In this document: in pieces, positions 18,286 through 50,507 of the stretch
How positions within the stretch are numbered: position 1 is the first letter of the stretch
Layout of the letters: each line of letters begins with the position of its first letter
Source of the DNA: Schwartzia sp. (in: firmicutes)
GTDB taxonomy: Bacteria; Bacillota; Negativicutes; Selenomonadales; Selenomonadaceae
Length of the DNA: 50,507 bases
Assembly: GCA_017383125.1 (NCBI GenBank)
Contig: JAFNYY010000079.1
Span: forward strand, 1 to 50,507
Direction: 5' to 3'
Position numbers and translations under genes: made by a program
The notes under the pieces: model-generated
The model's database searches: none
Seen by the model: the letters and a program-made list of their open reading frames with translations, nothing else
What the model was told of the DNA's origin: nothing

Positions 18286-19061
18286 TGAGTGACGATAGAA
18301 GAGTTGTCCTTGTTACCGGCGGAAGCTCCGGTATCGGTTTGGTGGTGGCAAAGCGGTTTGCTGCCAAGGGCTTCAGAGTCATGATTGCCGGACGGCAGCC
18401 GGAAAAAGGCTCGGAGGCCGTCAGAGAGATTGCAGCCTGCAGTCCCGAAGGGGAAGCCGGAGTCAGATTCTTTTCCGTCGATATCAGAAATCCGGCCAAG
18501 TGCAAGCATCTGGTGTCTCAGGCAGAGGAATGCTTCGGCCGCCTTGATGTGCTGGTTAATTCGGCCGGAATATATCGGGAGGGAGCCGCCGATGAACTCA
18601 CAGAGGACGAATACAGCGATGTCTTCGACACCAATGTGAAGGGAACAATGTTCATGACGCGGCATGCTTTGCCGATATTGAGAAAGACAAAGGGCAGTAT
18701 TGTAAATATTTCCTCGGATGCAGGACTGCACGGAAATTTCTTCTGCAGCCTGTATTGTGCCTCGAAGGGAGCTGTAAACCTTTTCACCAAGGCGGCAGCC
18801 CTGGAGGCAGCACATTACGGGGTCAGAATAAATGCTGTTGCTCCCGGTGACATCAGGACTCCCCTTACAGAGGCACAGCTCATGGCTGACGGCGAGGAAA
18901 ACAGAGAAAATGCAGAGCGTAACATGGCTTCTGTGTATCCTCTGGAGCGAATCGGTGAGCCGGAGGAGGTTGCGGCGCTTGTATATTTCCTTGCTTCGCC
19001 GGAGGCATCCTTTATCACCGGTGCGGTTGTTCCGGTAGATGGCGGTCTGACAGCAGGCTGA
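18285..19061 (+). CDS. Short-chain dehydrogenase/reductase (SDR family)
   Basis: A 258-residue classical SDR. The cofactor fingerprint TGGSSGIG is near residues 11-18. NSAGIY is the NNAG-type motif. The catalytic set is S (NISSDAG), Y157 and K161 in YCASK. The C-terminus PEASFITGAVVPVDGGLTAG matches the FabG-like group. It uses NAD(P)H on an unknown substrate; it is not in a fatty acid operon, so FabG is not claimed. The start overlaps the mazG stop by one base (TAATG) with GAGGGGAGAAGCG upstream. No clear terminator follows. Confidence 0.88.
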   Translation: MSDDRRVVLVTGGSSGIGLVVAKRFAAKGFRVMIAGRQPEKGSEAVREIAACSPEGEAGVRFFSVDIRNPAKCKHLVSQAEECFGRLDVLVNSAGIYREGAADELTEDEYSDVFDTNVKGTMFMTRHALPILRKTKGSIVNISSDAGLHGNFFCSLYCASKGAVNLFTKAAALEAAHYGVRINAVAPGDIRTPLTEAQLMADGEENRENAERNMASVYPLERIGEPEEVAALVYFLASPEASFITGAVVPVDGGLTAG

Positions 19062-49025: not shown

Positions 49026-49038
49026 CAACACCTTAAAG

Positions 49039-49121
49039 CCTCACATAATGGGGAACTGGTCGAGCGAAGCTCCCCCGTCATAAAGCCTCCCCTATAGGGG
49101 AGGTGGCCGAACCAAGTGAGG
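49039..49121. repeat. Short dispersed repeat, copy C
   Basis: 83 bp bounded by CCTCAC and GTGAGG, with a perfect 18-bp palindrome CCTCCCCTATAGGGGAGG at 49086-49103. It shares end and palindrome style with copies A and B, but little of their middle. Confidence 0.55.
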
Positions 49122-49155
49122 TCGGAGGAGTAAAAATCATAGCAATAACCACATC

Positions 49156-49203
49156 AAAAATCAAAGTTTGTGCTATGGATAGCATAAACTTTGATTTTTT
49201 TCT
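49156..49203. terminator. A/T-rich inverted repeat: terminator or recombination site
   Basis: Arms AAATCAAAGTTTGTGCT (49158-49174) and AGCATAAACTTTGATTT (49181-49197), one mismatch, 6-bp centre ATGGAT, with T-runs outward on both strands. It could be a bidirectional terminator. Its 12-bp inner arms and 6-bp centre also resemble a serine recombinase crossover site. Confidence 0.6.
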
Positions 49204-49219
49204 AGTTTGTGCTATGGAT
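49204..49219 (+). repeat. 16-bp direct repeat of one inverted-repeat arm
   Basis: AGTTTGTGCTATGGAT occurs here and, identically, at 49165-49180, 39 bp upstream, within the dyad. It is a half-site copy ahead of the recombinase gene. Confidence 0.7.
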
Positions 49220-49224
49220 TCTGA

Positions 49225-49953
<729 letters not shown>

Positions 49954-49967
49954 AAACAGAGACTGTA

Positions 49968-49992
49968 GGAAAGTGTACTTTCTTGTAAGTCC
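49968..49992. repeat. Palindrome and direct repeat after the recombinase gene
   Basis: GAAAGTGTACTTTC (49969-49982) is a perfect dyad. It runs into TTTCTTGTAAGTC, a near-copy of 49273-49285. A diverged copy, AAAGTACACCTTTTTGTAAAT, begins near 50177. Confidence 0.45.
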
Positions 49993-50102
49993 CTGCGATT
50001 TCAATATTCTACCATAAATCGTGGAATTTGTATACCTTTTTCATCTTATTTCATTATATCAGAATTGCATAGCAGCCTTGTAAATAAAGGATTTTTATAA
50101 TA

Positions 50103-50143
50103 AAAACGGACAGTAGGTCATTCTGAGATCTACTGTCCGTTTT
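50103..50143. terminator. Bidirectional terminator
   Basis: A perfect 14-bp stem AAAACGGACAGTAG/CTACTGTCCGTTTT with a 13-nt loop gives T-runs on both strands. The 280-bp gap between the recombinase and the next gene otherwise holds the repeats noted and A/T-rich DNA. Confidence 0.85.
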
Positions 50144-50235
50144 ATCATTTATATGGTCGTTTTTGATGTATTAAAAAAGTACACCTTTTTGTAAATTGTA
50201 ATCATAGAGACAAAATGTCGTGGGGAGTTGATGAT

Positions 50236-50507
50236 ATGTATTGTAATAAATGTGGCACGCAGGTGTCCGATGATTCTGTTTTTTGCTATAAATGTGGAAC
50301 AAGACTATCTGTTATTACAGGTAACCAGGCAGATTGGCAAACGGTAGTGCAGGAAAATGTGACTACTAATACTGCGCAGCAGACACAGGCATATCAAAAT
50401 GCAAATGTAGTGAGTCAACCTGCAACTGTTGGTCGGCAGGGAGACAATGTTTGTGAGGAAGAAGAAACCCCATGGAGTTCATATTGGACTGTAACAAAGT
50501 TGTTGGC
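50236..50507 (+). CDS. Zinc-ribbon domain protein (partial, runs off the window)
   Basis: The first 90 codons of a gene cut by the window end. Residues 1-23 form a compact zinc ribbon, MYCNKCGTQVSDDSVFCYKCGT, with two CxxC knuckles. A Gln/Asn/Thr-rich linker follows (about residues 35-70), then ETPWSSYWTVTKLL, possibly the start of a membrane segment. The pattern fits Firmicute zinc-ribbon membrane proteins of unknown role. The ATG follows GGGGAGTTGATG. Base use is more A/T-rich than in the core genes to the left. Confidence 0.75.
   Translation, partial: MYCNKCGTQVSDDSVFCYKCGTRLSVITGNQADWQTVVQENVTTNTAQQTQAYQNANVVSQPATVGRQGDNVCEEEETPWSSYWTVTKLL

Follow-up and report, generated by a model that had tools for sequence, protein, structure and literature searches.

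A terminator-like hairpin, a small serine recombinase and a putative invertible promoter segment in Schwartzia sp. (Selenomonadaceae)

The hairpin that precedes a small serine recombinase gene in a stretch of Schwartzia sp. DNA (the window, 50,507 nucleotides) is very probably an intrinsic terminator, and the adjoining recombinase is very probably a DNA invertase that flips a promoter segment downstream of its own gene, forming a phase switch. Computation established the sites, their inverted cores, the position of the promoter, the recurrence of the arrangement in relatives and the occurrence of opposite orientations among relatives. We propose that the hairpin would end transcription between a PAP2-family gene and the recombinase gene, and that recombinase dimers would bind two dyads just downstream of their own gene, pair both sites, cut at the 2-bp cores and invert the 204 bp between them. 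In the assembled orientation, where the promoter would face the recombinase and a terminator would stop read-through, the zinc-ribbon protein gene beyond the segment would be OFF; after inversion, with the promoter upstream of that gene, it would be ON. Binding, cutting and flipping in the organism of the window, as well as the effect on the gene, are what we infer from the following sequence features.

49156-49201, plus strand: probable intrinsic terminator (the dyad of the earlier note), with a 20-bp stem, the loop TGGA and a T-run
49204-49219, plus strand: second copy of the 5' arm of the hairpin plus loop, AGTTTGTGCTATGGAT, with no arm of its own
49261-49283, no strand assigned: perfect 10-bp dyad CTTACAAAAA/TTTTTGTAAG, from a dyad search
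49292-49350, plus strand: predicted mRNA stem (49292-49302 with 49340-49350) expected to mask the ribosome-binding site of the recombinase, from four sequences
49354-49953, plus strand: small serine recombinase of 199 aa with an N-terminal catalytic domain, from Pfam, PDB and PHROG comparisons
49967-49984, plus strand: putative recombination site I, AGGAAAGT-GT-ACTTTCTT, 13 nt past the stop codon, from the scored site model
49977-50180, no strand assigned: putative invertible segment of 204 bp between the cores, from the site model
50006-50034, minus strand: predicted segment promoter TATACA-17-TAGAAT with an extended -10, facing the recombinase, from a promoter scan of the sequence
50103-50143, plus strand: terminator hairpin within the segment, 17 pairs with an A-run and a T-run, from dyad and terminator scans
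50173-50190, minus strand: putative recombination site II, AAAAAAGT-AC-ACCTTTTT (on the minus strand AAAAAGGT-GT-ACTTTTTT), from the scored site model
50236-50505, plus strand: start of a zinc-ribbon protein gene, cut by the contig end, from the open reading frame list and Pfam

The gene behind the hairpin encodes a small serine recombinase, as the earlier note had stated: the product matches Pfam Resolvase (PF00239) with 98.7 bits and contains the catalytic domain of resolvases, including the region of the catalytic serine. It aligns to Sin over residues 3-151 with matching GYxRVSS and SIDRLGRN regions, which we take to hold the catalytic residues, with the serine at position 9 as the catalytic one; its C-terminal part is probably DNA-binding. 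Among PDB entries the best match is Sin (105.6 bits), ahead of gamma-delta resolvase (77.4) and the DNA-invertase chains 4m6f (67.0) and 3uj3 (65.7), and PHROG 125, annotated 'DNA invertase', is matched with 173 bits. All matches to NCBIfam models lie far below their cut-offs, including those to the Mpi family (NF009949, 44.5 bits against 272) and to the IS607 transposase (NF033518, 19.6 bits against 110), the catalytic domain being N-terminal here. Two genomes of the genus were compared, the window's own (G000, in which the window locus is C56) and its nearest relative, a congeneric genome that is 100% complete (G001). G000 also holds a paralogous locus, C38, whose recombinase is 75% identical and whose orthologue in G001 is C8. 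An in-frame N-terminal extension (an open reading frame of 237 aa) is open in both C56-type orthologues; since a stop lies within a few codons ahead of the start in the paralogue G001:C8, the extension was rejected and the ATG at 49354 was kept.

Downstream of the recombinase, sites I and II are 18-bp dyads with 2-bp cores that start 206 bp apart, and because GT and AC are reverse complements the two sites are inverted relative to each other. The window holds two dyads with inverted, non-palindromic 2-bp cores and, between them, a predicted promoter that in one orientation could drive a flanking gene, albeit with a weak -35 element. As this promoter lies on the minus strand, the zinc-ribbon gene would be OFF in the assembly; by mirror arithmetic, inversion would bring the -10 to approximately 50146-50151, which is about 85 nt upstream of the start codon of that gene (50236). 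The expectation of the earlier note that the recombinase acts at dyads close to its own gene is most likely right in general and misplaced in detail, the dyads concerned being others, on the downstream side. Site I is often embedded in a larger hairpin where the recombinase gene ends (49954-49997 in the window, also L054; judged by eye); the right arm of this hairpin is inside the segment, and inversion would break it.

The arrangement recurs among homologous loci. A GT/AC site pair 80-260 bp apart was found at 54 of 116 such loci and in none of 109 equal-size upstream control windows, the counts depending on the chosen score threshold, and it follows recombinase identity: 53 of 80 loci at 60% or more, 1 of 19 at 50-60% and 0 of 17 below 50%. 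When each site was freely re-centred, GT followed by AC was recovered in 53 of the 54; loose scoring also accepts GT/GT (43 loci) and AC/AC (39 loci), because GTAC overlaps itself. The scored model replaced a dyad scan with up to two mismatches per dyad, since that scan missed most sites. Recombinase matches occurred in 53 of 100 genomes, from which 30 loci were read, with 15 more regions; a further search contributed the best 80 of 573. Left out of the 116 were loci with short 3' sequence or no stop codon within the sequence read (L024, L038, L060, L073, L075, L081, L094, L115, L127, L129) and those repeating the window or G001:C9 (L001-L004, L048, L049, L052, L053). From these sequences a reversible on/off layout appears to recur in many gut bacteria. 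A 23-base match was also seen in G019 (L135). A further 12 of the 116 loci, none among the 54, show the same layout with a palindromic AT core and spacings of 91-156 bp (L006, L008-L010, L012, L015, L017, L018, L037, L068, L072, L118; 1 of 109 in the control). Palindromic AT cores cannot set orientation through the core.

Measured from start to start, the sites of the 54 pairs are spaced at 105, 113-116, 125-128, 134-139 and 146-147 bp, with empty gaps between, and in eight longer cases at 175 to 251 bp; the 206 bp of the window belong to the long group, outside the phased cluster. A phase test gave a resultant above 0.5 at every period from 9.5 to 12 on related sequences that are not independent; as this test alone is not decisive, the phasing rests on the visible gaps between clusters. 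The clusters lie roughly one helical turn apart, which suggests a requirement for both sites to be turned toward one another when the loop is short.

The promoter holds a fixed place within the segment. Among the segments 100-150 bp long, the best promoter candidate has its -10 at a distance of 42-46 nt from the end of the segment in 34 of 46 (200 shuffled sets: mean 2.2, maximum 7), and 8 of these 34 position-fixed promoters point forward. Across 56 segments, 14 promoters point toward the downstream gene, 36 away from it, and 6 are unclear. Evidence of flipping comes from two loci, in an uncultured Acetatifactor (L056) and in Merdimonas faecis (L064), which agree in 254 of 300 columns before site I and in 538 of 600 after site II. 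Their segments align in 91 of 109 columns when one is inverted versus 37 of 142 directly (shuffled: mean 40.7, maximum 51), with local scores of 131 inverted and 18 direct; judged from these alignments, the two loci share the upstream flank and the downstream gene and carry the segment in opposite orientations. A weaker inverted pair, L084/L095, has local scores of 55 inverted versus 17 direct, its end-to-end alignments being nearly equal (73/183 inverted versus 64/185 direct). In the genus of the window no flip was seen, as all six segments of G000 and G001 have the same (OFF) orientation.

These six segments are bounded by the site pairs of the two genomes, of which G000 has three (C56, C38, C68) and G001 likewise three (C9, C8, C14); in addition, the pattern gave weak single matches here and there. 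The C38 segment spans 18749-18954 and that of C68 20198-20402. C68 (G000:C68:20188-20412, L153) and C14 (G001:C14:146799-147021, L154) have no adjacent intact recombinase, and such copies would need flipping in trans. The two are 82% identical over 251 bp, which is the only match between two 9-kb stretches with otherwise unrelated flanks; C68 precedes a membrane-bound O-acyltransferase gene (Pfam MBOAT, 103.4 bits) and C14 a gene for a zinc-ribbon-like protein. At 50 of the 54 loci a downstream gene was chosen by a rule of thumb that is surely wrong in some cases, and Pfam assigned to these 50 genes 5 ResIII, 4 Helicase_C, 4 BspA-type leucine-rich repeat, 4 zinc ribbon, 3 C5 DNA methylase, 3 TnpB-like and 2 MBOAT matches; methyltransferase and type IV restriction models top the PADLOC list for the downstream genes. 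TnpB-like genes (Cas12f1-like_TNB, OrfB_IS605) stand behind the switch in L078 (307-1488), L103 (4775-5917) and L124 (3731-4915). Restriction- or defence-like genes, of PLD-helicase, C5 methylase and HA-domain helicase types, lie right behind it in L056, L064, L084, L095, L058, L059 and L067.

As for the hairpin upstream of the recombinase, the 16-mer AGTTTGTGCTATGGAT was reported to occur twice, 39 bp start to start, and does so at 49165-49180 and 49204-49219. That its first copy lies in one arm of a dyad also holds; this dyad extends further than the earlier note had it, with 21-nt arms (49156-49176 and 49179-49199, 95% complementary) that lie 2 nt apart. As RNA the dyad would form 20 consecutive pairs (one G-U) with the loop TGGA, and the fold of 49150-49240 has -29.2 kcal/mol (z = -5.66), a stability equalled in 0 of 200 shuffles. 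The hairpin stands after the end of the PAP2-family gene (49025) and before the start codon of the recombinase (49354), and its copy in G001 differs by one base, in the loop. The stem is terminator-like in that it runs into a T-run, and a simple terminator scan lists it on the plus strand; the A-run on its other side might perhaps make the terminator bidirectional. It resembles intrinsic terminators in its stem, short loop and T-run at a gene end, and differs from typical ones in its A/T-rich stem (4 G-C pairs) and in the extra arm copy behind it. That copy is a partial duplication, without a dyad of its own. A terminator at such a place is common, since a terminator-like hairpin occurs within 300 nt upstream at 40 of 125 homologous loci versus 3, 3 and 6 in three shuffled sets. 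The alternative that the earlier note had itself offered, a terminator, is the better supported one, with stem and T-run between the PAP2 and recombinase genes, and judging by sequence the hairpin is most likely an ordinary intrinsic terminator. A search of the window for AGTTTGTGCTATGGAT with up to three mismatches gave 3 matches (0.53 expected from shuffling; 3 reached in 1 of 100 shuffles), the third being the reverse strand of the dyad itself, and G000, an assembly 84% complete, holds no further exact copy. A palindromic, REP-like repeat, AAAGCCTCCCCTNTAGGGGAGGTGGC, lies nearby at 49034-49130; with up to three mismatches on both strands it has 65 matches in G000 and 118 in G001 (control 0).

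Compatible with a terminator next to an invertase, the leader between hairpin and recombinase could itself be a regulatory RNA or an operator that limits recombinase expression, with the repeat competing with the terminator stem; we regard this as possible, though rather doubtful. The leader (49123-49353) is identical to that of G001 at 221 of 231 positions versus 501 of 600 in the recombinase gene, and 50-base bins from 49151 to 49350 are 96-100% identical, a 96% conservation that exceeds the need of a bare terminator. The fold of 49140-49360 has a z of -7.50, and four leaders are predicted to form the stem that masks the ribosome-binding site. Both points argue in the same direction; against the idea, most changes in this stem are one-sided and L034 alone gives a z of -1.40. 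The comparison moreover covers two species, and the paralogous leaders (G000:C38 versus G001:C8) lack unusual conservation (105 of 131 identical versus 503 of 597 in the gene), so that a general regulatory RNA is unsupported and the idea of a generally ultraconserved leader was dropped. On the plus strand the repeat emerges after the terminator and cannot prevent it, which rules out attenuation by the repeated half-site; on the minus strand the two would follow in the order expected of an antiterminator, but there is no gene nearby in that direction. An Rfam search gave nothing near a gathering score. The right arm of the perfect dyad at 49261-49283 agrees with the outer half of site I at 12 of 13 positions, and this dyad is possibly an operator for the recombinase. 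Some control of the recombinase level is likely from these features.

That the downstream dyads are the ends of a resolvase system or of a transposon, with no inversion switch, we consider improbable. The closest solved relative of the recombinase is indeed a plasmid resolvase, Sin, which outscores 4m6f and 3uj3, and a transposon would agree with segments that precede unrelated genes and with the pair that shares about 250 bp between unrelated flanks; the cores are, however, inverted, which gives inversion, both orientations of the segment exist among relatives, and the promoter position is fixed.

Least probable, and rejected, is a reading of the upstream dyad and its additional half-site as the recombinase's own recombination site or an accessory (res-like) site: the dyad adjoins the recombinase gene, its 12-bp arms enclose a 2-bp GG centre, a repeated half-site follows 39 bp on, and it lies in a stretch highly conserved in G001, yet it exists in one copy each in G000 and G001 with no second full site in either, which the earlier note had named as an outcome that would refute it, is absent from the paralogous loci G000:C38 and G001:C8, which keep the downstream sites, scores 8 in the family site model (99th percentile of the window background 16, maximum 23; site I 24, site II 22), and has its only relative among 380 genomes, with three mismatches, in G060, where the hairpin adjoins a gene resembling a signal peptide peptidase (judged from translation) and where the search of 100 genomes found no recombinase homologue.

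Serine invertases are well known, as are invertible promoters. The hix sites recognized by Hin have a 2-bp core, and the hin gene lies inside its own invertible segment; Mpi and other Bacteroides invertible promoters switch reversibly between ON and OFF ahead of surface genes. The switch proposed for the window resembles Hin/hix in having a small serine recombinase beside an invertible promoter segment with two inverted dyad sites. It differs in that the segment measures about 105-250 bp, the sites lie past the stop codon and not around the recombinase gene, and in sequence the recombinase stands nearer to Sin than to the PDB chains of DNA invertases. By analogy the recombinase would work as Hin does on hix, a resemblance that need not extend to membership of the Fis-dependent Hin/Gin group. 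Unlike Mpi, whose family model it matches poorly, it is accompanied by a neighbouring segment of its own, always arranged in one layout. The cited sources describe the Hin invertase with its hix sites in Salmonella flagellar phase variation (PMC3798978) and the Bacteroides invertons, short invertible promoters before surface and other genes with reversible ON/OFF states (PMC11868660). In a gut inverton survey, the main Clostridia group, 139, is tied to a nearby tyrosine-type recombinase, and new motifs are given for further inverton groups (PMC11892184). Group 139, as characterized there, is likewise linked to a nearby invertase, which is of the serine type here. No description of these sites or of the cassette was found among the papers listed by searches of the open literature.

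Four things would be new: a layout that is fixed, a length that is phased, a branch with AT cores, and copies that are non-autonomous. We think it somewhat more probable than the contrary that the window holds one copy of a widespread, compact and self-contained phase-switch cassette that occurs in the lineage of the window and in Clostridia. It would consist of a Sin-like serine invertase and, at a fixed distance behind it, a promoter segment of about 105-250 bp whose length, when short, comes in whole helical turns. It would stand before unrelated genes (surface proteins, O-acyltransferases, DNA methylases, helicases, TnpB-like proteins), with non-autonomous copies flipped in trans and an AT-core sub-branch of unfixed outcome. 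If this is true, AAAGT-GT-ACTTT / AAAGT-AC-ACTTT after a recombinase stop codon would predict randomly switched genes; the rule would cover restriction and surface genes of many uncultured gut bacteria, and each switch would gain a candidate enzyme. With the helical spacing and the branch of AT cores, the roles of loop length and of core symmetry would become open to direct tests in a natural system of small size.
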